DNA from: an uncultured Actinomycetes bacterium
GTDB taxonomy: Bacteria; Actinomycetota; Actinomycetes; S36-B12; UBA10799
Assembly: GCA_946803585.1 (NCBI GenBank)
Contig: CAMPEQ010000011.1
Span: 558,001 to 622,000 of the forward strand
Length of the DNA stretch: 64,000 nucleotides
Direction of reading: 5' to 3'
Below are positions 7,987-62,181 of the stretch, one piece after another. A program made the position numbers and the translations under genes. The notes under the pieces are model-generated. The model was not told the DNA's origin and made no database searches. It saw nothing but the letters and a program-made list of their open reading frames with translations. Numbering within the stretch: the stretch's first letter is position 1; each line of letters starts with the position of its first letter.

Positions 7987-8026
7987 GTGGAGAGTCCGGC
8001 AATCTAATTGACGCAGGGGAACCTTC

Positions 8027-9151
8027 CTAGCCAATGACAACTCGGCGGCGGCGGATGAACCAAACGGCCGACCCGACGATCGCGACAAGGACAAGCCCAG
8101 CGATCACCTTGCGAGTTGTCGTCCACCAAGAGATCTCTAACGTCGGCGGATCAGGCGCCTCTACGGTAAAGTCGGGCGCCACTACTTGGAACACAAACGA
8201 ATAGGTCCCGGGCTGCCAACCCCCCGCGGGCACGTAGGTGGCCTTGGCATCGGTGAGGCCCGACTTCAGTACATCGAGAGAAGCTAGATCCGCCACTTCG
8301 ATCTGCTCACCGTCGTGTTTCACCGCAACCTGAATCGCAACCGGGCCAGTGACGGGCTGTATGTCATTCCTCACGCTTGACACCAACTCGACCGAGATCG
8401 GCTCACCGCTGGGCGGATTGGGCTTAGCCGCCGTTAAGAAGAAGCTGACTGCCTTGACTGGGATGACAACATCGGTGTTCTGATTGGCAATCACTTCAAA
8501 GTCTGTGGATTCGGAAGCAAGTCCGGTGATCTCAAAGAGGCCCGTGTACGCCCCAGGAGCCAACTGCGCCACCACCTCAGTGCCCTCGGCTGATGCGACA
8601 GGAATTCCTCGGCCAGAATCCTGCTCCGTGAGGATGGAGAACTTGCCCGTCAAAGCGGAGTTACTACCCTCTGCAACCGCCGTCACTCTCGCGGTTCCTG
8701 TCTCACCAACGACGTCTAACGTGAAGTTGATATCGACCGCGGGCGCAAAAACGACGGTTCCCGAGTCCGATTTGGGGACATTCTTCTGACGGAACTGAGC
8801 GACGATCTTGTAGGTTCCCGGTATCGCCTGGCTGTCGGCGGAAGCAGATAGTTGGACATCTCGTTGCTCGCCCGGCTGCAAGGTAAAGCTCTCATCTGAA
8901 GCCCTAATGCTGACACCGGCCGGAACTCCGCCTGGAGAGTAGGCGACGTCGGCAGGCTGTGACCCGGAGTTTTGGATGATCGCTCTTGTGAAGTTGGGCA
9001 CCGATTGTCCCAACGCGAGGGAGAGCACTGGCTTGTTCGGAAGAGTGCTCCCGCCCCCAAGCGCGTAGGTGTCCTTTGCTGCAGCGGGCGATGAGGCACC
9101 GAACAACGCGACCAGCAGCCCGACCAGGATCGATAGCGCGCGCAACTTCAT
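8027..9151 (-). CDS. Exported Ig-like protein with C-terminal membrane anchor
   Basis: A 374-aa protein with a signal peptide (MKLRALSILVGLLVALFGAS, cleavage expected after SPAAA). It contains several beta-rich segments: residues ~40-160 look like an NEAT/DUF916-style Ig domain (FTRAIIQNSGSQPADVAYSP, FTLQPGEQRDVQLSASADSQ), then two more putative Ig-like modules. A hydrophobic helix near residues 345-365 and a basic end (IRRRRVVIG) anchor it in the membrane. The layout resembles WxL-interacting surface proteins of Firmicutes, but no sequence identity is claimed. It lies downstream of another exported protein on the same strand, with a long hairpin between them. Function unknown. Confidence 0.75.
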   Translation of the reverse strand: MKLRALSILVGLLVALFGASSPAAAKDTYALGGGSTLPNKPVLSLALGQSVPNFTRAIIQNSGSQPADVAYSPGGVPAGVSIRASDESFTLQPGEQRDVQLSASADSQAIPGTYKIVAQFRQKNVPKSDSGTVVFAPAVDINFTLDVVGETGTARVTAVAEGSNSALTGKFSILTEQDSGRGIPVASAEGTEVVAQLAPGAYTGLFEITGLASESTDFEVIANQNTDVVIPVKAVSFFLTAAKPNPPSGEPISVELVSSVRNDIQPVTGPVAIQVAVKHDGEQIEVADLASLDVLKSGLTDAKATYVPAGGWQPGTYSFVFQVVAPDFTVEAPDPPTLEISWWTTTRKVIAGLVLVAIVGSAVWFIRRRRVVIG

Positions 9152-9223
9152 GCCGACATCTATTCATACGTAGAGCCGCGATGTCGCGACGAGCGGGTGC
9201 GGTGCCCTGGCTTCGAGGGGGCA

Positions 9224-9267
9224 CGTTTGAGGGGTGAGACCACTTGATTGGTCCCACCCCTCAAACG
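9224..9267 (-). terminator. 19-nt inverted repeat between two exported-protein genes
   Basis: Arms 9224-9242 and 9249-9267 pair over 19 positions with one mismatch around a 6-base loop. The repeat starts 17 bases after the upstream minus-strand gene's stop and ~70 bases before the next start. It can act as a terminator or as a read-through attenuator lowering expression of the downstream membrane protein. Confidence 0.65.
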
Positions 9268-9283
9268 AGCGACTCTGGATCGA

Positions 9284-10288
9284 CTATGCAGCGTTACCGA
9301 CACCAACTGCCACGGTTGCGCTGTACTCACCGATAGGTAGGCCACCACCGCTCGTTAGGCGGCAGGAGTTCACAAGTGCTGTTGTTCCCGCCTCCGGCGT
9401 TCCGGATGTCAGCACACCTGCGTCGAGGGTTTGGGCGAGCAGTGTCAGCCGAGTGGCATTGCCTTCAGTGAAAGTGTCAGCCGCTTCGCAGTCGAGCGCT
9501 ACATCACCCGTTCCGACTGCAGTTGCCGGTGTTCCCCCAGCGATCCCTGCCGTGTTTAGAGTCGGAACCGTCATTTCAAACTCAGTGTCCTGAGACATCG
9601 ACACATCGGTTGCGCCATTCGCGATGATCGTTCCATCTGAATCATCCAACGACGTCGCAGCCCCTGGTGCGCCACTATCGACCTCTCCATACGACACTCC
9701 CAAACGCTGTGCCGTGATAGTCGAGAAGTAGCCAACAGGCATCATGTTCGCGTTGTTGTCGATGCCGTCATCGTCACTGACGTCGGTGGCCGTTGCAATC
9801 ACAGTCCAGTCACCTTCCAACGAGACCGCGCCAGCCCTAAACTCAAAGTCCATCGCCATCGATGTCGCAGCCGCGTTGTAGTTACTCACGGAGGTGCCCA
9901 GCGCCCAGGTCGTAGCGGCGTCCGGATCCATTGTGAACGCATCCGTTGCTCGCGTCCACGTAATCGAGACCGTGTTTTGAGGATCCGTGGCGGCACAAGT
10001 GGCGTCGCCAACACCCGTCCGGTACAGACACAGCTCCACCGTCGCGAGGTCCTGCAGTAGGTCCGCGTCACCGGCGAGGACCTCGATGAGCTGCAGGTCA
10101 CTACCCGTTGCGGTCGGGGTGACAGTGCCCATCGGATCACCAGTCGTGATGGCCGCGGTGGGTGCGGTATTCCCCGGGGTAAAATCGTCCGCGGCGGCGG
10201 GGCCAACAGCAGCGACTGCCATCCCACCCGCTAGCAGCGACAGAATCGCCCCACGCGCCGCCCATTTCTTCGTCGTCGTCCGCCTCAT
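9284..10288 (-). CDS. Secreted acidic protein of unknown function
   Basis: A 334-aa protein with a clear signal peptide (MRRTTTKKWAARGAILSLLA, cleavage after GPAAA). The mature part is rich in Asp, Thr, Ala and Gly and poor in Lys, like surface-layer or wall-associated proteins. Internal stretches such as DLQLIEVLAGDADLLQDLAT and EGDWTVIATATDVSDDDGID suggest Ig-like or cadherin-like beta domains. No C-terminal anchor or LPXTG motif is visible. Four cysteines could form two disulfides. It is the first gene of a minus-strand pair with the membrane-anchored Ig-like protein at 8027-9151, suggesting a secreted subunit and its anchored partner. I do not recognise a family. Confidence 0.7.
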   Translation of the reverse strand: MRRTTTKKWAARGAILSLLAGGMAVAAVGPAAADDFTPGNTAPTAAITTGDPMGTVTPTATGSDLQLIEVLAGDADLLQDLATVELCLYRTGVGDATCAATDPQNTVSITWTRATDAFTMDPDAATTWALGTSVSNYNAAATSMAMDFEFRAGAVSLEGDWTVIATATDVSDDDGIDNNANMMPVGYFSTITAQRLGVSYGEVDSGAPGAATSLDDSDGTIIANGATDVSMSQDTEFEMTVPTLNTAGIAGGTPATAVGTGDVALDCEAADTFTEGNATRLTLLAQTLDAGVLTSGTPEAGTTALVNSCRLTSGGGLPIGEYSATVAVGVGNAA

Positions 10289-10465
10289 GTTCCCACTCCT
10301 TCGATCTGCGCCTAAGCACTTCCATGATCAGCGGGTGATCCCGACGATCCCTTGTTAGTCAGATCACACTAAACGTGCTCCGGTGTCCCGCGATCTTGAG
10401 TCTCGATGCGCCGAATGGGGTAACGAGACCAGGGAATCCGCTGGCCAATCGTCGATGATCTTCGT

Positions 10466-11359
10466 TTACTTGAGTAGTCGGCTCATCCGACGATCGGCAA
10501 GCACCTTGCCGCCGGTCTGACACGTCGGGCAGTACTGCAGCGACGAGCTCGCAAACGACACCTCCCGCACCGTGTCCCCACACACCGGGCAGGACTGGCC
10601 CGTGCGACCGTGGACCGCCATCGCGGCCTTCTTCTCCGCCTTCAACGTCTCCGGCGCCGACCCCGCCGCGCGCGCGATCGCCGCTCGCAACGTCGACTGG
10701 ATCGCATCGAACAACGCCTCGCGTTCATCGGTCGTGAGCTTCCCGGCGGCGGCGTATGGCGAGAGCTTCGCGGCGTGCAGGATCTCGTCGCTGTAGGCGT
10801 TACCGATTCCGGCGATCACCGATTGATCCCGCAGCACACCCTTGATCTGCTTACCGCCCGCGTTGTCCAAGATGAGCGCGAGCTCACCGTGGGTAAACGC
10901 CTCATCAAGCGGGTCCGGACCAAGGCGAACGATCCCCGGAACCTCACTGAGGTGGCGAACCACGTAGACCGACAGCCGCTTCTGCGTCCCCGCCTCGGTG
11001 ACGTCGACACCGCCAATGACCGACCCGTCGACGTTGCCAAAGGCCAGGCGCAATGCCAGCGGGCCACGACCCGGTTTGGGCGGGGTATCGGAAGGCTTGT
11101 CCACCCAACGAATCCAACCCGCGCGCGACAAATGAATCACCAGAAATAGCTGCTCACCGGTGGTCTCCACCAACGACCAGACGATGAACTTGCCCTGCCT
11201 GGCAATATCGTCGACCACGGCTCCGCGCAGCCCAAGTAACGGCGGATCGACCGTCTTCAGCGCCGATAAGTCAGCCAGCGCAACCCGTTGAATCCGGTGA
11301 CCGAGGGTGCGCTGCGCCAGCGCCTCAGTCAAAGCTTGCACCTCAGGAATCTCAGGCAT
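10466..11359 (-). CDS. Fpg/Nei-family DNA glycosylase / AP lyase
   Basis: A 297-aa base-excision repair enzyme. The catalytic N-terminus MPEIPEVQALTEALAQRTLG carries Pro2 (Schiff-base nucleophile) and Glu3. The C-terminus carries a zinc finger CPVCGDTVREVSFASSSLQY followed by CPTCQ, and the helix-two-turn-helix region VLRDQSVIAGIGNAYSDEIL is intact. It removes oxidised bases and nicks the resulting abasic site. The overall sequence (e.g. GKFIVWSLVETTGEQLFLVI) resembles the second Fpg-like group of actinobacteria rather than canonical MutM, so substrate preference (8-oxoG or oxidised pyrimidine) is open. It is monocistronic and divergent from the subtilase gene. Confidence 0.9.
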   Translation of the reverse strand: MPEIPEVQALTEALAQRTLGHRIQRVALADLSALKTVDPPLLGLRGAVVDDIARQGKFIVWSLVETTGEQLFLVIHLSRAGWIRWVDKPSDTPPKPGRGPLALRLAFGNVDGSVIGGVDVTEAGTQKRLSVYVVRHLSEVPGIVRLGPDPLDEAFTHGELALILDNAGGKQIKGVLRDQSVIAGIGNAYSDEILHAAKLSPYAAAGKLTTDEREALFDAIQSTLRAAIARAAGSAPETLKAEKKAAMAVHGRTGQSCPVCGDTVREVSFASSSLQYCPTCQTGGKVLADRRMSRLLK

Positions 11360-19001: not shown

Positions 19002-21221
19002 ATGGGAGCTGTTTCCCGCTGGGCCGTCAACAAGCCTTGGCAAGCAATCGGGGCCTGGGTGCTCCTACTCGTCGTCATCTTCGGTGGAGCGGCAACCGCT
19101 CCCGGGTCCTATGACGACTCGTTCAGTCTGCCAAACACTGAGTCCAGCCAGGCGATGGACCTGCTTGAGGCGGAGTTCGGTGCAGAAAGCAACAACGGCG
19201 CCGCGCAGATCGTCTTCAAGCCCTCAACCGGAACCATCGAGGATCCTCAGGTCCAAGCGGAGATGACCGCGCTCGCAGCGGAGATCACCGACATCGGCTC
19301 CGTGGCCTCCGTGGAAACTCCGTATGGCAATCCGGCAGCTGCCCAGATGGGGCTCGTCAGCCCAAGCGGCACGGTCGGACGGATGCAGGTCGCGTTCGAC
19401 GTTCCCGACGACGAGGTACCGCTGGCCGATGTCACCGCCCTCGTAGAAGACGTCGAAGCTGCCAATACCGACACCCTGCAGGTCGGGGCTGGCGGACAGA
19501 TCATCCAGTTCTCCTCCGCCGAGCCCCCGAGCAGCGAGCTCATTGGTATCGGCGTCGCGATCGTCATCATGCTCATCATGTTCGGCTCAGTGGTCGCTGC
19601 CGGACTCCCGCTACTTACCGCACTACTAGGCCTGGGCGCCGGAATCTCGATCCTCACGCTGGCCGCCAACTTCCTGTCAATCGCGACCTTCGGACCCACG
19701 CTGGCCGCAATGATCGGCCTCGGCGTCGGTATCGACTACTCCCTGTTCGTCATCAACCGTTACCGCCAGTCGGTCCTTGGTGGGATCGAACCGCGGGCGG
19801 CGGCGATCATCGCCGTCAACACGGCCGGACGAGCAGTCGTCTTCGCCGGGTTCACGGTCATCATCGCCCTCGGCGGCTTGTTCGTTCTTGGGCTGAGCTT
19901 CATGAACGGATTGGCGATCGGTGCCGGCATCACGGTGCTCAGCGTCATGGTCACCGCGGTGACATTGCTCCCGGCCGTCATCTCGGTGCTCGGACGCAAG
20001 ACGTTCGCCTTGAAACTTCCGTGGGCGCGCCACCCCCACCGCCAGAAGGAGAACAAGGGCTTCACCCGTTACGCCACCGGACTCCAGAAGCACCCGTGGC
20101 TCTTTGGTGGAGTGGCCTTTGTCCTCATGGCGGTGCTGGCAATCCCGATGTTCTCGATGCGCTCCGGCTTCCCGGACGCGGGCGGAAACGCGCCCGGTAA
20201 CACCTCCCGGATTGCTTACGATCTGACGACTGAAGGATTCGGCGCCGGGTCGAACGGACCGTTCCTCGTTGTCGTCGAGCTCCCCAGCCCGGAAGCAGTC
20301 GGTGAGGCACAAGAACTCTCCGACGCGATCGCGGCAACCCCAGGCGTCGCCTCGGCTACCCCGGTGATTCCCGGGACTCCGACGGTCAGCGCCGACGGAA
20401 CCACCGCGATCATCAGCGTCCAGCCGACCACCGGTCCGCAAGACCCCGGCACGACGGCGCTCCTAGAAACGCTGCGAACTCAGACGATTCCGGAGGCAAC
20501 TGCCGGAACCGGAATGAGCGCTTACGTTGGCGGCTCAACGGCGATCACCGAGGACTTCTCAACTGTCCTATCGGACAAACTCCTGCTGTTCCTCGGCGTG
20601 GTGATGGGGCTTGGATTCCTCGTCCTATTGGTCCTATTCAGATCGTTGGTGGTGCCGCTGACAGCGGTCCTGACCTCGCTGTTGAGCTACGGAGCAGCGC
20701 TAGGCGTCACCGTCTTCGTCTTCCAATGGGGCCACCTCAGCGACCTATTTGCGGTGACCGCGACCGGACCGATTCTGCCGTTCTTGCCGGTCATGCTGTT
20801 CGCGATCCTGTTCGGGCTCTCAATGGACTACCAAGTATTCCTCGTCAGCCGGATGCAAGAGGAATGGCTGCAGAACAAGAACGGAAACGAGGCAGTTCGC
20901 CACGGACTCGGCGGATCCGGCCGAGTGGTCGCTGCCGCAGCCTTGATCATGTTCAGCGTGTTCATCTCGTTCGTCTTCGGCGATGACACGACGATCAAGA
21001 TGTTCGGTCTGTCGCTAGCAGTCGCGATCTTCCTGGATGCCTTCGTTGTTCGTCTCGTCCTCGTCCCGTCGTTGATGACGGTTCTGGGTAAGGCGAACTG
21101 GTACCTGCCCGGCTGGCTATCTCGAATCCTTCCCGAGATCAAGGTAGAGGACCACTCGGACTTCGAGGCGGAGTTCTCCCAAGGGGACAAGCCGGAACCG
21201 TTAGCACCCAGCCAAAGCTGA
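19002..21221 (+). CDS. MMPL/RND-family membrane transporter
   Basis: A 739-aa inner-membrane transporter. Helix 1 (AIGAWVLLLVVIFGGAATAP) is followed by a ~140-residue extracellular domain, then five helices including the conserved GLGVGIDYSLFVINRYR. After a cytoplasmic linker the pattern repeats (second extracellular domain ~390-500), with ILFGLSMDYQVFLVSRMQEE as the second D-Y motif. Proton-relay aspartate-tyrosine pairs are intact in both halves. Family knowledge: MMPL proteins export lipids or amphipathic drugs. It is probably regulated by the divergent MarR. A short acidic C-terminal tail follows the last helix; the lipid substrate is unknown. Confidence 0.92.
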   Translation: MGAVSRWAVNKPWQAIGAWVLLLVVIFGGAATAPGSYDDSFSLPNTESSQAMDLLEAEFGAESNNGAAQIVFKPSTGTIEDPQVQAEMTALAAEITDIGSVASVETPYGNPAAAQMGLVSPSGTVGRMQVAFDVPDDEVPLADVTALVEDVEAANTDTLQVGAGGQIIQFSSAEPPSSELIGIGVAIVIMLIMFGSVVAAGLPLLTALLGLGAGISILTLAANFLSIATFGPTLAAMIGLGVGIDYSLFVINRYRQSVLGGIEPRAAAIIAVNTAGRAVVFAGFTVIIALGGLFVLGLSFMNGLAIGAGITVLSVMVTAVTLLPAVISVLGRKTFALKLPWARHPHRQKENKGFTRYATGLQKHPWLFGGVAFVLMAVLAIPMFSMRSGFPDAGGNAPGNTSRIAYDLTTEGFGAGSNGPFLVVVELPSPEAVGEAQELSDAIAATPGVASATPVIPGTPTVSADGTTAIISVQPTTGPQDPGTTALLETLRTQTIPEATAGTGMSAYVGGSTAITEDFSTVLSDKLLLFLGVVMGLGFLVLLVLFRSLVVPLTAVLTSLLSYGAALGVTVFVFQWGHLSDLFAVTATGPILPFLPVMLFAILFGLSMDYQVFLVSRMQEEWLQNKNGNEAVRHGLGGSGRVVAAAALIMFSVFISFVFGDDTTIKMFGLSLAVAIFLDAFVVRLVLVPSLMTVLGKANWYLPGWLSRILPEIKVEDHSDFEAEFSQGDKPEPLAPSQS

Positions 21222-34336: not shown

Positions 34337-35491
34337 CTAGTGCGCGACGTCGGACTTCCAGCCACTGGTAGCAGAGTCTGCGCCTGCCGCTGCTTCGGCA
34401 TCTGCGAGGGCATCGACTTCTGCCATTGCCACTGATTCGGCTTCAGCGTCAGCTGCTATCCGCGGCGATGCCCAGCGAATCACCACGTTCATGATGACGC
34501 CGATGATCACGGCAATCACCGCACCTAGGAGCGTGAATTCAAACCGTTCACTGGCCAATGTGACCTGACCGTTGCCTGCCGAGTCGAGCAGAATCACCGC
34601 CGGTGTGAGGAAGCTGGCATAGATCCAATAGGCGCGCTTCTCCGCCATGATCGTCAGGGCAGTAACCATCAGAATCCCGGCGATCACATAGATCGCTGCG
34701 GAGTGTTCGACCACCGAGATCACTGCGAGCGCAACAATAGAACCGATGAATGTCCCACCCACTCGGGCGAAGATCATGTCGAAGTCGAGGTGACGTGTTG
34801 GCTTCGTGAGCAAATAGATCGTGAGCGTCAACCACATCCAGTAGGTATCGGGATACCAAGTCAAGGCTACGAAGGTGATAGACCCCGTCGTTCCCGCGAG
34901 CAATACCCCGTAGAGAACCGACGCACCAACCGACGGAATCTGTGGTTTGTCGCCGAAGCTTGGGAGCTTCACGAGTTTGGCAACGATGAATGCGGCATAT
35001 AGGCCGGCGGCTAGAAGGACGAACAAGGTGATGAGTAGGAATAGGAACTCGTTGTCGGCGATCCCTGACCGCGGCTTCTCCGAAATTGCAGCATGGACGA
35101 CATAGGGCACCAACGGTGCCGTAAAGACCATTGGACCGGCGAGACCGCGAAGCCCGAAGAAGGCAACGAGCGCCGACATCACGGCAACGAGCAAGGCCGC
35201 GAGTACCGGCTGACCGCCCGTCCACACCCCGATCGTCGCGGCCACGGCAAAGATCGAGACGAAGAGGGCACCAGTGGAGAATCCTCGACCCAGCGCGGAG
35301 AACATTCCCACAATCGAGGCGAACGCAATCACCGATACGGCTTGCGGCCACCAAATCGACACCAGAATTGCCGGAGGGGCGATGGCAACGATGCCAAGGA
35401 TGAATACCTTGACGGCGGTCGATAGGAATCCCGTCACTACAAGACCTCGATTGTTGTCTGTGCGGCTGAAGAGTACTGGTGCTGCCGGCAT
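34337..35491 (-). CDS. FUSC-family-like integral membrane protein
   Basis: About 384 aa with around 10-11 transmembrane helices in two bundles. The second half includes ITFVALTWYPDTYWMWLTLT and KPTRHLDFDMIFARVGGTFI followed by GSIVALAVISVVEHSAAIYV, the phrase typical of FUSC/aromatic-acid-exporter proteins (PF13515-like). Family knowledge points to export of aromatic acids or related small anions. A TTG at 35506 is an alternative start; the ATG at 35491 is listed. The C-terminal ~40 residues are an Ala/Glu/Asp-rich tail. It begins ~30 bases after the ACR3 gene and probably belongs to the same minus-strand transcript. Confidence 0.75.
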   Translation of the reverse strand: MPAAPVLFSRTDNNRGLVVTGFLSTAVKVFILGIVAIAPPAILVSIWWPQAVSVIAFASIVGMFSALGRGFSTGALFVSIFAVAATIGVWTGGQPVLAALLVAVMSALVAFFGLRGLAGPMVFTAPLVPYVVHAAISEKPRSGIADNEFLFLLITLFVLLAAGLYAAFIVAKLVKLPSFGDKPQIPSVGASVLYGVLLAGTTGSITFVALTWYPDTYWMWLTLTIYLLTKPTRHLDFDMIFARVGGTFIGSIVALAVISVVEHSAAIYVIAGILMVTALTIMAEKRAYWIYASFLTPAVILLDSAGNGQVTLASERFEFTLLGAVIAVIIGVIMNVVIRWASPRIAADAEAESVAMAEVDALADAEAAAGADSATSGWKSDVAH

Positions 35492-35521
35492 ATCCCTCGG
35501 CAGCAAGCTAAGAAGCCGAGG

Positions 35522-50528: not shown

Positions 50529-50627
50529 ATGATAGGCACCAACAACGGCACGTTTTCGCATACGAGCAGTAGCAAGTCCAGAAGTTCGAGTAGTAGTTCG
50601 AGGCCAGACAATAGGGAGCACCAGTGA
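50529..50627 (+). CDS. Possible 32-aa Ser-rich peptide between pbpA and pknB
   Basis: An ATG at 50529 with AAGG close upstream opens a 32-codon frame rich in Ser (GTFSHTSSSKSRSSSSSSRP) whose stop overlaps the pknB GTG by four bases. The junction style matches the other overlaps in this operon, and it occupies the place of pknA. It could be a coupling leader, a kinase substrate or chance. Low confidence. Confidence 0.25.
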   Translation: MIGTNNGTFSHTSSSKSRSSSSSSRPDNREHQ

Positions 50628-52459
50628 CCGAAGCCCGAAAGCTCGGCGATCGCTACGAACTTGGCGAGCCACTAGGTCGCGGCGGTATGGCCGAGGTCTT
50701 GGAAGGCCGCGATCTGCGGCTCGGCCGCCGAGTAGCAGTGAAGATCCTGCGACCCGACTTGGCCAAGGATCCCTCTTTCCAGTCACGATTCCGGCGCGAA
50801 GCCCAATCGGCCGCATCCCTTAACCACCCCAACATCGTCGCCGTCTACGACACCGGCGAGGACATCCTCGGTGAAGACGGCAAGACCGTCGTCGTTCCCT
50901 ACATCGTGATGGAGCACGTCGACGGCCAGACGCTACGGCAGCTACTAGCCTCCGGCCGGCGCCTACTGCCCGAGCGCGCACTAGAGATCACCGCCGGAAT
51001 CCTGGCGGCGCTGGACTACTCCCATCGTCACGGCATCGTCCACCGAGACATTAAGCCAGCGAACATCATGCTCACGCGTACCGGCGACGTAAAGGTGATG
51101 GACTTCGGTATCGCCCGCGCGCTGGCTGACGCATCAGCCACGATGACGGCCGCCTCCGCCGTAATGGGCACCGCTCAGTACCTCTCACCGGAACAAGCCC
51201 GAGGTGAGGTCGTCGATGCTCGCTCCGACCTCTACTCCACCGGCTGTCTGCTCTACGAACTGCTCACCGGGCGCCCGCCTTTCCAGGGAGACTCACCGGT
51301 ATCGGTGGCCTACCAGCACGTCAGCGAGACGCCGTTGCCGCCATCGCAGGTCGACCCAGCCGTTCCGCCTTCGCTGGATCCCCTGGTGCTCAAGGCACTT
51401 GCCAAGGACCCAGACGATCGATACCAAAGCGCCGCGGACTTCCGTGCCGACGTCGAGCGCGCCATGGCAGGGCTTCCGATCACTTCTGCGATGCCGGTCG
51501 TCGCCCCGGTGGCCGCTGGTGTTGCCGCCGCTGACGCCACCCAACAGTTCGCACCTGCCGGAGCCACAGCCGATCCGATGGCTGGGGTTGACGATGGCGA
51601 GAAGAAGCGCAGCCCGTGGGTATGGATTGGGATCGCTGCACTGGTGTTGCTCGTGGCCGGGCTTGCCCTGTTCCTCGGGCGAGTGCTGTTCGGCGCCACC
51701 GCGGCCGAGCAGGTCTCCGTGCCCACCGTCGTAGGTAAAACGGTTCAACAAGCCGAGACGACACTGTCAAAACAAGGCCTGAAACTCGGGACGCAAACAC
51801 CCCAGGCATCCGAGCAGCCGGAGGGCGACATTCTGTCGCAGAATCCGCAGGCTGGATCGCAACTAGCCAAAGGCCAGTCGGTCGCTGTGACTGTCTCCGC
51901 CGGGCGCGCACAGGTACAAGTGCCGACATTGACCGGACTTGCGAGTTCTAGTGACGCCCAAGCTGCCCTCAGCGAGGTCAACCTCACTCTCGGCAACGTA
52001 ACGAGGCAGGATTCTGACCAACCTGAGGGGATGGTTCTGTCGCAATCCCCAAGTTCCGGGACGACGGTGGATGAGGGCAGTAGCGTCAACATCACGGTGT
52101 CCAACGGCATGGTTGAGGTTCCCAATGTGGTTGGTAATAGCGAGGCACAAGCCAATGCAACGCTGATCAACGCCGGGTTCAACGTCCAGGTGATCAACCA
52201 ACCGAGTAGTGACCCAACCGGCACCGTCCTTGCTCAGTCCCCGAACGGCGGAAGTAAGGCACAGAAGGGCGCCCAGGTCACGATCACGGTCGCGACCGCC
52301 CTGGCGCAGCAAGAACCGCCTGACCGTGCCAACGCGGCTCCGCCAGAAGATGCGCAAGATCAAGCAGGTGCCCTCGCTGGCGGTCCGTCAGCCTCGCCGT
52401 CGCCATCAACCACGAAGTCGGCCGTCACCGACGACGGTGGTGTGATCCTTAAGCCGTAG
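50624..52459 (+). CDS. pknB: PknB: PASTA-domain Ser/Thr protein kinase
   Basis: A 611-aa transmembrane kinase. The cytoplasmic kinase domain (~10-275) has the Gly loop LGRGGMAEV, catalytic Lys40 (VAVKIL), Glu24 in the loop region, HRDIKPANIML (Asp142), DFGIARAL (Asp160) and the activation segment TMTAASAVMGTAQYLSPEQA. A juxtamembrane stretch leads to one helix near 332-352 (WVWIGIAALVLLVAGLALFL). Three extracellular PASTA domains (~364-429, 430-497, 498-561) can bind muropeptides or lipid II; mycobacterial PknB has four. The last ~50 residues are a Pro/Ser-rich tail. It phosphorylates wall-synthesis and division proteins, opposed by PstP. Confidence 0.95.
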   Translation: MTEARKLGDRYELGEPLGRGGMAEVLEGRDLRLGRRVAVKILRPDLAKDPSFQSRFRREAQSAASLNHPNIVAVYDTGEDILGEDGKTVVVPYIVMEHVDGQTLRQLLASGRRLLPERALEITAGILAALDYSHRHGIVHRDIKPANIMLTRTGDVKVMDFGIARALADASATMTAASAVMGTAQYLSPEQARGEVVDARSDLYSTGCLLYELLTGRPPFQGDSPVSVAYQHVSETPLPPSQVDPAVPPSLDPLVLKALAKDPDDRYQSAADFRADVERAMAGLPITSAMPVVAPVAAGVAAADATQQFAPAGATADPMAGVDDGEKKRSPWVWIGIAALVLLVAGLALFLGRVLFGATAAEQVSVPTVVGKTVQQAETTLSKQGLKLGTQTPQASEQPEGDILSQNPQAGSQLAKGQSVAVTVSAGRAQVQVPTLTGLASSSDAQAALSEVNLTLGNVTRQDSDQPEGMVLSQSPSSGTTVDEGSSVNITVSNGMVEVPNVVGNSEAQANATLINAGFNVQVINQPSSDPTGTVLAQSPNGGSKAQKGAQVTITVATALAQQEPPDRANAAPPEDAQDQAGALAGGPSASPSPSTTKSAVTDDGGVILKP

Positions 52460-52602: not shown

Positions 52603-53280
52603 GTGACTGACTCAACTGAAAAGCGGCCTTGGGGCGGGCGGGCTATCACCGCTTTGCTCATCGGGTTGATCTGCATGGCTCTATTGGCAATCGTGAGCGT
52701 GCTCGCGCTCGGAATGAACACGGTGACTCAGCACGAGGTGTTGTACTCCGTAGCAGGTGGCGCCGTCGTCGGTTTGATCCGAATGGGTAGCCCGGTTGCG
52801 CGCTACGTCGGCTTCCTTGTTGGGCTCGTCCTTGGACTTATCTACTTTGTGTTGTTAGCCGCCGTCGTCCCAGGTGATGCGGTCGGCCGCATGATCGCCG
52901 GCCTCGTCGTGGTGGCACTGGCCGCGATCGTGAGCGCTCTCACCGGAATGTGGATCCAAATCTGGACGGTGTTCCTGGGCGCACTGCTGTTCATCGGCGC
53001 CTACCAACCACTCTTCGACGCCCAACTGTGGATGTTTGAGACCCAATCAGTTGGCACCCTCACCTCAACGGTCTTCTTGTCGACCATCGGATTCTGCGTA
53101 GTAATCGCAGTCGAGCTCATCGGCACGAACAAGAAAGTCAAGGAGACCCTCGATCACAGGCAGGGACACCAGGAGCCAACAGATCATTCGGTTCCAACGC
53201 AATCAGCCGTGACCACCGAGTCACCCACGGCCCAGAACCCGCTTGCCATCCTTGACGGACAGACAGGACAAACCAAATGA
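52603..53280 (+). CDS. Polytopic membrane protein, first of a two-gene unit
   Basis: A 225-aa protein with about five to six hydrophobic helices (ALLIGLICMALLAIVSVLAL, YVGFLVGLVLGLIYFVLLAA, MIAGLVVVALAAIVSALTGM, STIGFCVVIAVELIG) and a ~50-residue Gln/Thr/Ser-rich hydrophilic C-terminal tail. The GTG at 52603 has no Shine-Dalgarno and may be leaderless. Its stop overlaps the start of the large exported helical protein by four bases (ATGA), so the two are translationally coupled and probably form a complex in the membrane. It lies ~140 bases after pknB. I recognise no family. Confidence 0.72.
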   Translation: MTDSTEKRPWGGRAITALLIGLICMALLAIVSVLALGMNTVTQHEVLYSVAGGAVVGLIRMGSPVARYVGFLVGLVLGLIYFVLLAAVVPGDAVGRMIAGLVVVALAAIVSALTGMWIQIWTVFLGALLFIGAYQPLFDAQLWMFETQSVGTLTSTVFLSTIGFCVVIAVELIGTNKKVKETLDHRQGHQEPTDHSVPTQSAVTTESPTAQNPLAILDGQTGQTK

Positions 53281-55625
53281 AGTTGACCTCAAGGAGCCGA
53301 ACGAGTCTGCGAGTTCGAGCTGGACTGGCGGCATTTGCCAGTCTGGCCGTACTAGGTGTGAGTATCGGTGCCGCGGCCCCCGCATCGGCCCTGCCTTCGG
53401 AGAGCATCCTGGACGAGCTCATCCCCGCTGGCGACCCTGATCCGGTTGAAGAGATCGAAAAGCTCATCAGCCCGACTGCTGACCCGAGTCTCAAGCCGAA
53501 CCTGCTCAACAGCCGCCCGACCAAGCCCAACTCAACCGGGCTTAATGTCACCGTCGGGCGAGCAGTTGTAGTTTCCTCACTTGCCGACGGATCGTCCGCA
53601 GGTCTCACCGCACTGATCAGCAAGACGCAGGTTTCCGGCGACGGCTCGCGGGTCGTCGAGGTGCCGATGGCTACTGCCAACCCCAGCAACTCCGACAGCT
53701 TTCGCTCACTCGACGTCCAAGATGACGCGATCGTCTATGACGTCAGCAACACCGCACCCAACGTCCAAACGTTCAACGCCGGCAACGCAAGCTACGACGG
53801 CAAGTTACCGGTATCGGTTACCGTCCGAACCTGGCTTGACGGTGAAGAGATTGCCCCCACCGAGATGATCAACGTGACCGGCGAGGTCACGATGGAGTAC
53901 AAGTTCGAGAACCTCACGGGCGTTAAGACCCCACTGACCTTCAAGAACGCTCAGAACCAGACCGTCACCGAGTACGAGGACATCCCGGTTCCTTTCGGAG
54001 GCTCCTTCTCCGTGACGTTGCCGCCGAGCTTTGCCGATGTCAATGCTCCGTGGGCTAGTGGCGCGATGTCGCCCAGTGGTCTGGTCATGTCGGGTTCGGT
54101 GAACCTTCTCGGTCCGATTCCGGTGATCGGGGGAAGTGAGCAGACGCTGACAGTCACGGCTCGTGCCGACAAGGCAACGCTGCCGCAGGCGACGTATCAA
54201 GCAGTTCCCGTCGCCCTGTCGACCACGGAGGCTGACCTCGCCCTCAAGGCTGGGCCGGTTGCCACCGAGTTGACACAAATCGGCGCGAATGGCGTCAAGT
54301 GGGCCGACGACGAGATCTTGAAGTACCACGCCCTGTTCACCAAGTACGTCGCTGAGGCCGAGGACATCAACGACAAATATGTGCGGCCGATTCTGCGTGG
54401 CTTCGAGGATGGCTCATACCAGCAAATGCTCGATGAGGGCCTGGCCCAGGTCGAAGAGCTTGATGACGGCGCTCAGCAACTCGGGCAGCTCCTCCCCGTG
54501 TCCACCGAGGTCATCGGTTACCTGAATACGGCGATCGAGACGGGCGTTCCGCTTCTAGAAGAGAACCTCGACACGATCAACGAGATCATCGCCCAGTACG
54601 AGAAGTACCTCCCGCAACTAGCGGCACTAGTGCCTCAAATCAAAGAGACCTTGAAATGGCTAGACAACAACCTGGAGGGTTACCTTGCCCAGGGCGAGGA
54701 CTTGGCTAAGACGGCAGACAAAGTCTGCAACAGCGTGCAAGGTATCGACAACAAAATCGATAGCTTCTTCGCTTGGGTAGAGGCCACTCTCCCGGAATGG
54801 GTTGTCAACCTGATCAAACCGTACTTGCAGCCCATCATCGACGAGTTCAATACAATTGAGAGTTACGTCAATAACTGCGTCGAATATGCGCCCGTCGTCA
54901 TCGACTCGCTGCAGCTCGTACAAGAACAGCTACCCACCTACCTCGGGTACGCGGAATCAGCCTTCACGATTCTCAAGCGAGTCGTAGCGCTGGCGGAAGA
55001 GTACAACCCGTACGTCGAGGACTTCGTCAAGAATCAAGACGAGTACCTCAAGATGATCGACAACAACAAGTGCAAGAAGACACCTGAGACCATCACCAAG
55101 TGCGGCTACATGCAGCAGATCAACTTCCTGTATGGGCTGATGCAACAGGCCACATCGGCCGTCAACGACACGATGGTTCCTGGGCTCGACGAGGTTGTCG
55201 ACAACTACCTGCCGCTGGTACGCAAGTACTACAAGATGATCCAAGACAACGTGAACAAGTACGGTCCTGAAGCTGAGGCGCTACTGCCAACGGTCATCAA
55301 CTACATCGAGTCAACCTTTGGAACCGTTGAGGGATACACCGGTCAGGCCGCGAAGTACGTCGACGACGCCGGAATGATCATCGGTCGCACGGTTGCGGCG
55401 ATGGAGGCAATGGAAGACCGTGGTCAAGCCGGCCAAGGCCAACCTGCCGGGGCAAACGCTACTGGAGCCGACACAAGCCTGGCGGTCTACCAGTTCAGTA
55501 TGGCGCCGGCGGCTGATCCTGCCTCGGAGAACCTGCAGATGCTCGGAATCGCCCTCGTCTCAGCCCTCATTGCACTCGGGATGGGCACCTTCCTGCACCG
55601 ACGCAACAGTCGGCTAGGCAACTAA
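53277..55625 (+). CDS. Large exported helical protein with C-terminal membrane anchor
   Basis: A 782-aa exported protein. The signal peptide (AGLAAFASLAVLGVSIGAAA, cleavage near residue 37) is followed by ~50 disordered residues, then a beta-rich region (~85-320, e.g. KTPLTFKNAQNQTVTEYEDI; GSFSVTLPPSFADVNAPWAS). Residues ~335-720 are almost wholly helical and heptad-like (LLEENLDTINEIIAQYEKYL, PQLAALVPQIKETLKWLDNN), with four cysteines at 484, 534, 599 and 609 that could make two disulfides. A final helix (LGIALVSALIALGMGTFLHR) anchors the C-terminus, ending in a short basic tail. It overlaps the preceding membrane-protein gene. The arrangement suggests a wall-spanning or tubule-like structural protein; function unknown. 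Confidence 0.78.
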   Translation: MKLTSRSRTSLRVRAGLAAFASLAVLGVSIGAAAPASALPSESILDELIPAGDPDPVEEIEKLISPTADPSLKPNLLNSRPTKPNSTGLNVTVGRAVVVSSLADGSSAGLTALISKTQVSGDGSRVVEVPMATANPSNSDSFRSLDVQDDAIVYDVSNTAPNVQTFNAGNASYDGKLPVSVTVRTWLDGEEIAPTEMINVTGEVTMEYKFENLTGVKTPLTFKNAQNQTVTEYEDIPVPFGGSFSVTLPPSFADVNAPWASGAMSPSGLVMSGSVNLLGPIPVIGGSEQTLTVTARADKATLPQATYQAVPVALSTTEADLALKAGPVATELTQIGANGVKWADDEILKYHALFTKYVAEAEDINDKYVRPILRGFEDGSYQQMLDEGLAQVEELDDGAQQLGQLLPVSTEVIGYLNTAIETGVPLLEENLDTINEIIAQYEKYLPQLAALVPQIKETLKWLDNNLEGYLAQGEDLAKTADKVCNSVQGIDNKIDSFFAWVEATLPEWVVNLIKPYLQPIIDEFNTIESYVNNCVEYAPVVIDSLQLVQEQLPTYLGYAESAFTILKRVVALAEEYNPYVEDFVKNQDEYLKMIDNNKCKKTPETITKCGYMQQINFLYGLMQQATSAVNDTMVPGLDEVVDNYLPLVRKYYKMIQDNVNKYGPEAEALLPTVINYIESTFGTVEGYTGQAAKYVDDAGMIIGRTVAAMEAMEDRGQAGQGQPAGANATGADTSLAVYQFSMAPAADPASENLQMLGIALVSALIALGMGTFLHRRNSRLGN

Positions 55626-55694
55626 CCGGCTCGTATTCGCACGGCCTATCCGTCCATCACAGCAGTAAGCCGAACAGAAAGCTGGTAGTGCCAC

Positions 55695-56999
55695 GTGAAG
55701 CGAAGGATGCTCGGCTCGATCGCAGCGGCCGCAAGTGTGGTCCTACTTGGGGTTGGTGCGTGTAGTTCCGAACCTGCCGCGATCGAGGTCGGCGGAACTC
55801 CAGACACGCTCTGGGCACAAGCAAACGACCCCGTTGAGGGCCAGCCCTGGATCGTCGGACTTGGCGACTCCTATATGTCTGGCGAGGGCGGCCGTTGGGC
55901 AAGTAACGGCAGCGACAACTCCCAGTTCAGTGAGACTGGTGGCTGGCTCCTGGGGACACCTGAGCAGGTCTACGGGGACTCCCCTGACGGTACTGAATCG
56001 ATTCCGTTCTGCCACCGAACGGCGACGGCGCCCATGTTCATCGGTGAAGGATGGAACTCCAAGAACCTCGCGTGCTCCGGTGCCGAGACCCAGTCATTCC
56101 TGTCCAAGGACATTCGCCTCAAGCCTGGGATCGACTTCACTGAGACCACGACCGAGGCCGGACAAATGGTGGGCCAAGCCAAGCAACTTGCCGACTTCGC
56201 CAAGGACCATGACGTTAAGGCAGTCGTACTGTCCATTGGTGGCAACGACCTCGGATTCGCCGACATCATCTCGGCATGTGTAACGGGCTGGCTCAAGCCC
56301 GGCGAGACGCTATGCAGCCAATCGGAGACCGTCGCGGCGAGTATCAACACCGAGTTCCAGAAGATCGTGGCCGACCGAATTACCCAGTCCATATCGAATA
56401 TCAACCGAGCGATGTCCGAGTCTGGAAAGTCCCCAGAAGACTGGCGCCTCATCTACTCAGTTCCCCCATCACCGATCCCGGTTGCGGCTGATATCGCGTA
56501 CTCCGACAAGGGCTACTCGCGACAATCTGTTGGTGGCTGCGGAATCCACGATGCAGATCTCGACTTCTCCAACAGCGTCATTCTGCCGTTCGTCAAACAG
56601 ACGATCGAGAAGGGCGTGAAGGGTGCCCGCAAGCTCCCGAACCTCGCGCCGATCACGATCGTTGACAACTCCAATGCCCTCGACGGTCATCGGTTGTGCC
56701 AGGAGGGCACAAACCGGCCTCCTGCTGGCACCGGACTACCACCAAACGAGCTGGGTAACGAGGTCGAGTGGGTGCGGTTCCTATCGCTAGATATCGAACT
56801 GCGACACCCAGAGACCGTTGATGCCATCGAGGCAATGCACCCGACCTACTTCGGTCAGCGAGTACTGGGCTCCTGTACCCGAGCTGCAATCGAGAGCGCT
56901 CCGACAACGATGGAACTCGGCTGTACTCGCCCAGCGGATTCAGACTTCACCGGATCTGGGCTCAACGTCATGACTCCGGTAACAGCTGCCGCACAGTAG
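55695..56999 (+). CDS. SGNH/GDSL hydrolase lipoprotein
   Basis: A 434-aa predicted lipoprotein: the N-terminus MKRRMLGSIAAAASVVLLGV is followed by GACSS (lipobox V-G-A-C). The GDSL block I is IVGLGDSYMSGEGGRW with nucleophile Ser59; the block III region is VVLSIGGNDLGFADII, and the catalytic His382 lies in EAMHPTYFGQRVLG. It would hydrolyse ester bonds at the outer face of the membrane (lipid, glycan O-acetyl or wall ester). The GTG start is 70 bases after the helical protein stop, so it may be the third gene of that unit. Eight or more cysteines suggest disulfides. Substrate unknown. Confidence 0.87.
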   Translation: MKRRMLGSIAAAASVVLLGVGACSSEPAAIEVGGTPDTLWAQANDPVEGQPWIVGLGDSYMSGEGGRWASNGSDNSQFSETGGWLLGTPEQVYGDSPDGTESIPFCHRTATAPMFIGEGWNSKNLACSGAETQSFLSKDIRLKPGIDFTETTTEAGQMVGQAKQLADFAKDHDVKAVVLSIGGNDLGFADIISACVTGWLKPGETLCSQSETVAASINTEFQKIVADRITQSISNINRAMSESGKSPEDWRLIYSVPPSPIPVAADIAYSDKGYSRQSVGGCGIHDADLDFSNSVILPFVKQTIEKGVKGARKLPNLAPITIVDNSNALDGHRLCQEGTNRPPAGTGLPPNELGNEVEWVRFLSLDIELRHPETVDAIEAMHPTYFGQRVLGSCTRAAIESAPTTMELGCTRPADSDFTGSGLNVMTPVTAAAQ

Positions 57000-59018: not shown

Positions 59019-59843
59019 ATGTCACGCAGTCGCAGTGCACTGGGGATAGTTGCGATCACGGCGGTTGCTGGTGCGACCCTTATTGCAGCCCCCGTTTCGG
59101 TTGCGGCTGACTCCGATGCACCAACTACTCGAATCGTCGGCGGAAGCACAACCACCACCGAACAGTGGCCGGGAATCGTCGCGCTCGTCGAACGCGGGCG
59201 AGGCGGTCGGTGGAGCCAATTCTGTGGCGGGACATTGATTCATCCGCGCTATGTCCTAACTGCTGCCCACTGCGTTGTCGATGCGCGGGCCTCGAGAACC
59301 AACGTCGTTATCGGACGAACCAGCCTGTCCTCTGATGAAGGAGAGCAGCTATCCGTCAAAAAAATCATCATCGGCAAGTACAAACCAAAGACCGACAAGA
59401 ACGACATCGCTCTACTTCGCCTCGACACTCCCTCCACCGGCGAGACCATGCCGAGACTCAAGAAGCGCGACCGGTGGGCCTATCGCGCAGGGGTAGATGC
59501 CCAAGTCGCCGGCTGGGGTGCCACCAAATCATCCGGCTGGGGTGGCTCCGATGTGTTGCGCGACACCGACGTCGAGATGGTGAGCACGCGTAACTGCAAG
59601 AAGCTCTACCGACCGATCTACGGCAAGAAGCAAATCTGCGCCGGGGTCTGGCCCAAGGGTGGCCGGGACAGTTGCAACGGAGACTCCGGCGGACCGTTAA
59701 CGGTATTCGCTCCGGATGGGCGCAGGATGCTAGCCGGCCTCGTCAGCTTCGGGGCCCAGAAATGCGCCTCCAAGCGAGCCCCGGCAGCCGTCTACACCCG
59801 GACGTCGGCGTACAACAAGTGGATTAATCGCAAGATTGGCTGA
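59019..59843 (+). CDS. Secreted trypsin-like serine protease (S1)
   Basis: A 274-aa chymotrypsin-fold protease. The signal peptide (ALGIVAITAVAGATLIAAPV, cleavage after VAA) and a short propeptide precede the mature N-terminus IVGGSTTTTEQWPGI, whose Ile is expected to activate the enzyme after cleavage at Arg. The triad is His84 (TAAHC), Asp129 (KNDIALLRL) and Ser223 (GDSGGP). RDSCNGDSGG places an Asp six residues before the Ser, predicting trypsin-like Arg/Lys specificity. Six cysteines fit the usual disulfides. Monocistronic, with a structured leader. Confidence 0.93.
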   Translation: MSRSRSALGIVAITAVAGATLIAAPVSVAADSDAPTTRIVGGSTTTTEQWPGIVALVERGRGGRWSQFCGGTLIHPRYVLTAAHCVVDARASRTNVVIGRTSLSSDEGEQLSVKKIIIGKYKPKTDKNDIALLRLDTPSTGETMPRLKKRDRWAYRAGVDAQVAGWGATKSSGWGGSDVLRDTDVEMVSTRNCKKLYRPIYGKKQICAGVWPKGGRDSCNGDSGGPLTVFAPDGRRMLAGLVSFGAQKCASKRAPAAVYTRTSAYNKWINRKIG

Positions 59844-60084
59844 TCCCTTTGGGGGTAGCCGGATCTGGGACGGAGCCGCTGGGCGGCGCAATGCGCCAAA
59901 TTAGTCGACCACTTCCACCAGACGAATGGCCGTCCCAATCACGCAGGGTGCCATGGCTTAAGTAGACGCACGTAGGTGTACGCCATTGTTCCGCGACCCA
60001 GTGCACCTCATATTCTGGAGCACGCAGGAATGATCGGCCGTGGGCAAGACTCTGAGCGCGCAATCTGAGAGATTGTCACTCGTG

Positions 60085-62181
60085 ATGAGCCCGCACAATT
60101 TTGTATTTGCAAACCGTCCACCGACGTTCCGCAAACGGGGACAGCGGGTGGCGTGCGTAGGAATCGCAACTACTTTTGGTGCGACAATGCTCGCTGGGAT
60201 CGGTCTCCCCGCTGCGAACGCGGCGCTAACAAGCCCCATCAATTTGCCTGGAGGCGCAAACGTTCAGATCAATGGGTCGGGCGAAGACGATCACAGCGGA
60301 CACTCCGTCTCCGGTATCGGGGATGTGAACGGAGACAACATCGACGATGTCATCATCGGCGCTCCCCTCGCCTCGAATAACGATCGCGATATCTCCGGTT
60401 CTACCTACATCGTCTATGGGCGGGCCAATCCAGGGACCCCCGTCGACCTCTCCTCTCTGAACCCCGCCACAACTGGGCTGCGCATCGACGGGGCCACCGC
60501 CGATTCCTACAGCGGATGGTCCGTCTCCGGAGCAGGGGATGTCAACGGCGATGGCCTCAACGATGTCGTGATCGGCGCGCCGTTCGATTCGGCTGACGAA
60601 TACTGGGCAGGCTCCTCGTACATCATCTACGGACAGCCGAACAACCAAGCGACGAATATCGACCTCGCGACGCCGCTGGTCCCAAGTAGCACGGGCTTCA
60701 AGATCGATGGAACTGATGCGCGAAGTTGGAACGGGTGGTCCGTTTCCGGAGCCGGTGACGTCAACGGTGATGGCAAGGACGACGTCATTGTGGGGGCCGA
60801 TGGCGACGACAGTCTTGGTCGCAACGGCAATGGAACTGCGTACATCATCTACGGCAAGGCCAATGGAGCTGCCGACAACATTGACTTGGGGACCCCCCTA
60901 GTCCCGACAAGTACCGGCTTTGCGGTCCGTGGAGCGGCTGACGGCGATGGGACGGGTGAATCGGTATCCTCAGCAGGTGACGTAAACGGCGATGGTATTG
61001 CCGACCTAGTTGTCGGAGCTCCGAGAACCTACTCCAATTTCTTCGCTGGAACGACCTATGTCGTCTACGGAAGACCGAGCGCGGACGCAAACAATATCGA
61101 TCTAGACGATGGGCTCGATCCGGCAAATACCGGCTTCCTAGTTACCGGTGTTGACGTCCTTGAGCTCAGCGGATATTCCGTATCTGGTGCCGGAGACGTC
61201 AACGGCGACAACTTTGATGACGTCGTTATCGGCGCGCCGACAGCCGCCTTCGAAGAGCCAACACAATCCGGATCCGCCTATGTCGTCTACGGAAAACCCA
61301 ACGGTTCGGCGGCGAATGTCGCCTTGGCAGACACACCACTGAACCCCGCAAGCACCGGATGGAAGATCACTGGAGCTGAGATTGGTGACAATGCGGGCAA
61401 TGCTGTCTCCGCGGCTGGGGACATTAACGACGATGGCCTTGACGACGTCCTGGTTGGCGCGTGGCATTCGAGCAACAACGGGCTGGACGAGGCTGGTTCC
61501 TCCTATGTCCTCTACGGCGCAGCCGATCAGAATGCCAGCAATATCGACTTGGCTACACCGTTGAACTCAGCAACAACGGGTATCCAGTTCGACGGCGGTG
61601 CGGAACACGACCACGTCGGGGCAGCGGTCTCCGGAGCATTCGATATGAACGGTGATGGCGCCAGCGACATGCTCATCGGTGCTCCTTACGCAGAATCCAA
61701 CGCCGAGCACTCGGGCTCCTCCTACGTCGTGTTCGGACAGCTCAAGCCGACACCAGCACCGGCCGCGCAAGTTCCATTGAGGAACTGCGTCAAGGTTCCA
61801 GTGGCGCTAGCCAAGAACAGCAAGACCAAGCTCACCAAACCTCGCTGTAAGACCAATGCCGGGCAATCTGTCCGCGTGACGGCAAAAGCCGTTAGCAAGC
61901 GGGGAGACATTCGCACCTTCAAACTCATCAGGAAGAAGAACGGGAAGACCTTCATTAAGACCTTCCAGACCCGAACCAAGGTGACCATCAAATGGAAGGC
62001 ACCGGCCACCTCCGGTTACAAGAAATACAAGCTGAAGCAGACCTTCAAGATCGGCAAGAAGGCTAAGCGACAACTGTCATTGCCGACACCGGAGAACCGC
62101 AGCAGTCCCGGCGCCAAGAGTTGGGCTCCTCATGAGCACCTTCAGGGCCCACGTCTGCGCCGAGCCCTAGCACGTAAGTGA
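60085..62181 (+). CDS. Secreted seven-repeat FG-GAP (integrin-alpha-like propeller) protein
   Basis: About 698 aa. The signal region is VACVGIATTFGATMLAGIGL (cleavage after AANA). Seven repeats of ~60-70 residues follow, each centred on the phrase VSGAGDVNGDG-x-DDVVIGAP (variants VSGIGDVNGDNIDDVIIGAP through VSGAFDMNGDGASDMLIGAP), which supplies a D-x-N-x-D calcium-binding loop; seven blades would close a beta-propeller. The C-terminal ~140 residues are lysine-rich beta repeats (CVKVPVALAKNSKTKLTKPR; TFIKTFQTRTKVTIKWKAPA), like those of the CAP and subtilase proteins. An earlier in-frame GTG at 60040 is possible. Probably a calcium-dependent surface or matrix protein. Confidence 0.88.
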   Translation: MSPHNFVFANRPPTFRKRGQRVACVGIATTFGATMLAGIGLPAANAALTSPINLPGGANVQINGSGEDDHSGHSVSGIGDVNGDNIDDVIIGAPLASNNDRDISGSTYIVYGRANPGTPVDLSSLNPATTGLRIDGATADSYSGWSVSGAGDVNGDGLNDVVIGAPFDSADEYWAGSSYIIYGQPNNQATNIDLATPLVPSSTGFKIDGTDARSWNGWSVSGAGDVNGDGKDDVIVGADGDDSLGRNGNGTAYIIYGKANGAADNIDLGTPLVPTSTGFAVRGAADGDGTGESVSSAGDVNGDGIADLVVGAPRTYSNFFAGTTYVVYGRPSADANNIDLDDGLDPANTGFLVTGVDVLELSGYSVSGAGDVNGDNFDDVVIGAPTAAFEEPTQSGSAYVVYGKPNGSAANVALADTPLNPASTGWKITGAEIGDNAGNAVSAAGDINDDGLDDVLVGAWHSSNNGLDEAGSSYVLYGAADQNASNIDLATPLNSATTGIQFDGGAEHDHVGAAVSGAFDMNGDGASDMLIGAPYAESNAEHSGSSYVVFGQLKPTPAPAAQVPLRNCVKVPVALAKNSKTKLTKPRCKTNAGQSVRVTAKAVSKRGDIRTFKLIRKKNGKTFIKTFQTRTKVTIKWKAPATSGYKKYKLKQTFKIGKKAKRQLSLPTPENRSSPGAKSWAPHEHLQGPRLRRALARK

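Follow-up and report, generated by a model that had tools for sequence, protein, structure and literature searches.

Among the known systems closest to the one reported here are the RND transporter MmpL5 and its partner. The coiled coil of MmpL5 is antiparallel and bears a disulphide at the tip; the pump depends on the Ig-like protein MmpS5, and its coiled-coil tube ends short of the mycobacterial outer membrane (PMC12501195). The post-membrane step of MmpL-type lipid and drug movement through the wall is open even in mycobacteria. A different arrangement is found in YueB, whose large extracellular region comprises residues 31-817 (PMC9600267). Here we describe a widespread, unannotated pair of actinobacterial proteins with a pump-fused counterpart. 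The pair is a testable candidate for the post-membrane step in actinobacteria without a mycolic membrane, and our analysis provides a functional hypothesis for two protein families named in no database searched.

The pair was studied in a window of 64,000 nucleotides, the whole stretch of DNA analysed. Three open reading frames follow pknB, as a sequence-only reading of the same DNA had described, and encode a membrane protein (MP), a very large exported protein (BIG) and an SGNH lipoprotein (Table 1). A gap of 143 bases separates pknB from MP and one of 69 bases separates BIG from the SGNH gene. The MP and BIG reading frames share four bases (ATGA), confirming the overlap noted previously.

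Table 1. Positions of the MP and BIG genes, the parts of BIG, adjoining genes and related loci of the same genome.
Feature	Position	Strand	Description
pknB	50624-52459		Upstream of MP
MP	52603..53280	+	Membrane protein of 225 aa with six helices and a hydrophilic tail at the C-terminus (ORF call, AF2, profile comparison, adjacency); homologous to the additional C-terminal membrane domain found in an MmpL/RND transporter that is encoded at another place in the genome
BIG	53277..55625	+	782-aa exported protein, C-terminally anchored
BIG signal peptide	53277..53393	+	Residues 1-39 approximately, AxA-type end; hydrophobic stretch at residues 15-33
BIG beta head	53529..54230	+	Double beta-sandwich fold (residues 85-318), better conserved than any other part of the family
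BIG helical stalk	54228..55430	+	Residues 318-718; cysteines 484/534 and 599/609
BIG juxtamembrane motif and anchor	55344..55622	+	Conserved glycine/proline-rich R...G.G.PxGxAxG.....Y and C-terminal membrane anchor, then basic residues
SGNH lipoprotein gene	55695-56999		434 aa (ORF call)
Further MP+BIG pairs	C11:220-226 kb (two in tandem); C10:74-76 kb; C10:171-174 kb		Pairs of the genome in addition to that of the window
RND-linked locus L187 (G000:C9:36000-52000)	6309-11290	-	Outside the window, explains the finding; 995-aa MMPL-family RND transporter whose added membrane domain at the C-terminus is homologous to MP, then a 665-aa BIG relative with a 4-base overlap

MP was predicted by AF2 to form six helices (mean pLDDT 79, with good confidence in the core), and a fold search gave no significant relative. 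The predicted structure of BIG begins with a beta head (residues ~88-311, pLDDT mostly 70-96), continues as nearly all helix at lower confidence over residues 318-718 and ends with a strand (733-742) and a C-terminal membrane helix. With pLDDT values of 30-75 the shape of the stalk is uncertain. The beta-rich head, four cysteines, C-terminal anchor and export proposed for BIG by the sequence-only reading were all recovered in the sequence or the prediction. The helical region has an amphipathic periodicity of 3.5-3.6 residues, 13-16 SD over shuffled sequences, but the 17 prolines of the stalk point to a helical bundle with breaks instead of a single coiled coil. Cysteines 599 and 609 flank a loop between helices, and all four stalk cysteines (484, 534, 599 and 609) are kept in BIG family members that align well over the stalk. 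They would fit an exported, disulphide-braced protein. Topology signals place the head and stalk of BIG outside the membrane, with MP as the probable membrane base. The MP proteins of several paralogous pairs (e.g. L036:10738-11349, L043:9600-10271) share a recurrent C-terminal ...IIGG(A/S/T)(K/R) just before the overlap. This ending may be no protein motif but a by-product of a BIG ribosome-binding sequence located within the MP gene.

Neither protein belongs to a family that we could recognise. No Pfam or NCBIfam model reached its cut-off for the window MP or BIG, bearing out the earlier failure to assign them. When these window proteins and the family alignments were scanned against Pfam, NCBIfam and PADLOC, only TIGR03057 (xxxLxxG repeat) scored above cut-off, and only in paralogues. 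It matched 6 of 17 BIG members (best E 1.1e-18), although not the window BIG, and the stalk region of some BIG paralogues is an xxxLxxG heptad repeat. Models for YhgE/Pip and EsaA were not found in an NCBIfam scan of 17 BIG and 46 MP members. There was no match to MmpS, BIG being instead a 782-aa protein with its anchor at the C-terminus. A sequence search of solved structures gave BIG matches confined to the helix and none significant for MP. A viral fold library returned uninformative coiled-coil-type matches only, and a plasmid collection returned no match. In Foldseek the BIG head matched mu-homology domains (E 1.9e-7, TM-score ~0.5 on the target), but with identity of just 5-11% and so modest a TM-score we regard this as a resemblance of fold and rejected mu-homology identity. 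Neither the MP/BIG pair nor its fused transporter counterpart was found described in open-licence full texts.

Weak matches of two further kinds raised the question of whether MP and BIG are themselves a transport system. The weak fold matches of MP repeatedly include ALMT-type channels, and one transporter domain had a weak FUSC_2 match (E 0.14). The pair might thus be a small transporter in its own right, with MP as a permease-like half unit and BIG as its adaptor, comparable to the FUSC-type (AaeB/AaeA) efflux pairs. However, comparison of MP with actinobacterial FUSC domains gave profile probabilities of no more than 6%, and on this comparison a FUSC or ALMT link for MP was rejected; no fold match was significant and FUSC was absent from the families listed for 46 MPs. 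We therefore consider such a transporter unlikely. The genome has seven matches to FUSC_2 (fusaric acid resistance-like) above the family cut-off, including a 389-aa ORF on the minus strand of the window (34337-35506). A match of Mce4_CUP1 to the BIG stalk (E 5e-4) suggested an MCE-like lipid-transfer system, in which BIG would be an MCE-type needle and MP a YrbE-like permease. This match scored 20.1 bits against a Pfam cut-off of 32.6 and was confined to the helix. In family scans the BIG head was not an MCE domain and MP had no MlaE/YrbE match, and the anchor of BIG is C-terminal. An MCE link was rejected as a sub-threshold helix match, and a system of this type is extremely improbable.

We next consider whether MP and BIG form a unit. 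The source genome contains five diverged MP+BIG pairs. Full-length identity among its BIG paralogues is only ~20-25%, indicating that the copies are old. Across all loci fetched, from two classes of Actinomycetota, 42 distinct MP genes had 900 nt or more of downstream sequence, and each of the 42 was directly followed by a BIG head. This is the opposite of homologues that occur separately and never side by side, the outcome by which the sequence-only reading would have been overturned. The overlap was 4 bases in 22 of these 42 cases, the commonest arrangement, and 1 base in 7. Among 395 genomes sampled across the class, 29 had a confident MP and every one of these had BIG too, whilst 11 had a BIG-like head with MP undetected. 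Genomes carry one to six copies, and the pair is also present in a second class of the phylum. A scan of public genomes gave five loci, all from uncultured actinobacteria, one of them labelled Candidatus Nanopelagicales bacterium.

The two proteins have also diverged together. Distance matrices of MP and the BIG head correlated at 0.84 over 40 pairs, against a maximum of 0.27 in 2000 permutations, and nearest neighbours agreed for 28 of the 40. The correlation is due in part to the common ancestry of the genomes, but paralogues within the same genome keep the test of joint inheritance meaningful. Taken together, the genomic evidence indicates that MP and BIG are a real functional unit.

By contrast, the pair does not appear to belong with its neighbours in the window. 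One reading, which takes up the possible PknB control suggested by the sequence-only reading, places MP and BIG with the upstream peptidoglycan-elongation operon. The genes do lie on the same strand, 143 bases past pknB, with no predicted promoter or plus-strand terminator between. However, the operon itself is conserved in relatives (PknB ~57-78% identity) and the pair was found in 0 of 12 of their pknB neighbourhoods. About 7 of the 12 reach 1.5-9 kb past pknB, and in a congener the pair is absent from 9.4 kb of sequence beyond the gene. Pairs elsewhere adjoin unrelated genes, presumably nicotinamide-nucleotide-transhydrogenase-like genes, tetrapyrrole genes and polA, as we name them by sequence recognition. 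Membership of the operon and control by PknB are thus very unlikely.

The SGNH lipoprotein had been proposed as a third member of one complex on the strength of overlap and adjacency. This argument holds for MP and BIG but not for the lipoprotein, as the other loci fetched contain no homologue of its gene. The lipoprotein does match Lipase_GDSL_2, although weakly (18.4 bits, cut-off 32.9), and its sequence shows a lipobox and the catalytic-type motifs GDSY.SGEG and HPT. Further downstream in the window (59019-62181) lie a secreted trypsin-like protease and then a 713-aa FG-GAP repeat protein. The suggested location at an outer membrane face also failed to gain support. Pks13 is the mycolic-acid condensing enzyme, and no Pks13 match exceeded the cut-off in the source genome, compared with 1 of 14 control genomes over cut-off. 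An outer (mycolic) membrane is therefore unlikely in the source organism, as far as gene content can indicate.

A clearer indication of function came from BIG relatives without an MP gene alongside, which were revealed by a search with the BIG head. At eight such loci in the same order, including one on contig C9 of the genome, an MMPL-family RND transporter of 939-997 aa lies directly upstream and has an extra membrane domain past the standard RND end. The MP profile matched this extra domain with a probability of 95.7% (E 1e-8), or 95.9% with a 46-sequence MP profile. Matches to TM1, TM2-6, TM7, TM8-12 and the two loops of these transporters did not exceed 0.6%, and controls gave at most 0.1% for column-shuffled profiles and 1% for the reversed extra domain. 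The homology of MP is thus solely to the domain beyond the standard RND end, and neither MP nor BIG matched PF03176, the MMPL transmembrane domain. Profiles of stand-alone and RND-linked BIG proteins matched at 99.9% for the head and 91.9% for the tail. The RND-linked proteins have xxxLxxG repeats and one stalk cysteine pair 8-12 residues apart.

All 12 distinct transporters that carry the extra domain had BIG directly behind them, with a 4-base overlap in 11, a count that is partly selected because several MMPL-plus-BIG loci were found through BIG; four were re-found by the transporter domain alone. A genome search with the MMPL C-terminal region hit many MMPL proteins in their ordinary ends, covering just positions 1 to ~60 of the profile; only full-length matches were counted, all in the source order. 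An MP-type membrane domain directly upstream of a head-stalk-anchor BIG protein was therefore found in both stand-alone and fused forms. By profile comparison, MP is a stand-alone version of the transporter's extra C-terminal domain. A separate neighbouring gene in one branch that is fused in another, with the same partner, is a classic gene-fusion sign of shared functional context.

The genome encodes three MMPL proteins in addition to that on C9. One MMPL transporter of ordinary type, with 739 aa and no additional domain at its C-terminus, is encoded in the window (19002-21221), 31 kb from the pair. None of the five stand-alone pairs in the genome has an RND gene beside it. BIG-like heads also occur in other settings. 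At L188 (4412-7237) and L195 (6167-8977) they form part of proteins of ~940 aa that lack a C-terminal anchor and have neither MP nor an RND gene alongside, which makes a third arrangement for the head. Those at L189 (5660-8305) and L193 (5105-7897) have xxxLxxG-type stalks, belong to another family of the class and neighbour what we take to be sugar-type ABC transporter ATPase genes. The sequences of these four loci, which have neither MP nor RND gene, suggest that the head can serve elsewhere.

Because the module is fused to an MmpL-type RND transporter in the sister branch, the most likely job of the pair is that of an export accessory or adaptor. We propose that MP and BIG form a two-subunit envelope complex acting as an RND-type export accessory, either stalk or adaptor, a proposal for and against which we find the case evenly balanced. 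BIG would be exported and held by its C-terminal helix, with the beta head and a disulphide-braced stalk projecting into or through the cell wall. MP would be the membrane base on which BIG docks, and the stand-alone pair would be the free form of the module built into the MmpL-type transporter of the sister branch. Such a pair could help lipidic or amphiphilic substrates to cross the wall during export. The stalk would then serve in trans as their guide or tube, and the head would make contact with whichever pump, if any, the stand-alone pairs assist. Given the coiled coil of MmpL5 with its tip disulphide and its need for MmpS5, BIG may provide in trans what MmpL5 contributes in combination with MmpS. 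Against an export accessory are the absence of an RND gene at stand-alone pairs, the low confidence of the stalk, the lack of a significant fold relative for MP and the BIG-like heads found with neither MP nor RND gene.

The main rival is a structural role free of transport. Stand-alone pairs could be wall-spanning scaffolds or adhesin-like stalks, each with a dedicated membrane base that was later recruited into the RND fusion. The variable stalks of the five diverged copies in a genome would suit such a role, as would stand-alone pairs with no RND gene alongside and BIG-like proteins with neither RND nor MP partner. YueB/EsaA-type proteins similarly join a large extracellular domain to a polytopic membrane part (PMC9600267). 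However, the fused form is precise, comprising both the domain and the adjacent gene with the same overlap, which favours a shared role over chance recruitment. We consider the scaffold or adhesin role rather unlikely, whilst regarding it as a serious competitor. Returning to the export accessory, we tentatively suggest, with somewhat more doubt than confidence, that MP and BIG are the first members of a previously undescribed class of RND accessory belonging to bacteria that lack an outer membrane. This class would combine a wall-spanning stalk acting in trans with a six-helix base that is either separate or fused to the pump, and its several copies would serve different pumps or substrates.

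Of the known systems, MmpS5-MmpL5 also combines an MMPL-family RND pump with a beta-sandwich domain outside the cytoplasm and with a long stalk of helices bearing a cysteine pair. There, however, the coiled coil lies within MmpL5 and the Ig-like domain in the small MmpS, whereas here head, stalk and anchor make up the separate protein BIG. In the transporter branch of the present system the pump is extended by a further membrane domain at its C-terminus, and most copies of the system consist of the pair with no transporter. HlyD and other membrane fusion adaptors resemble the sister branch in having a beta domain and a helical stalk beside an RND pump gene. They differ in that BIG has no sequence match to them and is anchored at the other end, and without an outer membrane no outer membrane factor is expected. 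YhgE/Pip and EsaA/YueB proteins share the large extracellular region and polytopic membrane part, and TIGR03057 is found in those same 6 of 17 BIG members. Here, though, these parts are two proteins, of which BIG has a signal peptide and a single C-terminal anchor; no model of those families matches and the window BIG does not carry the repeat. By analogy, the pair would work most like the stalk-and-Ig accessories of MmpS/MmpL and is laid out like a split YueB/EsaA or YhgE/Pip protein, whilst standing outside each of these families.
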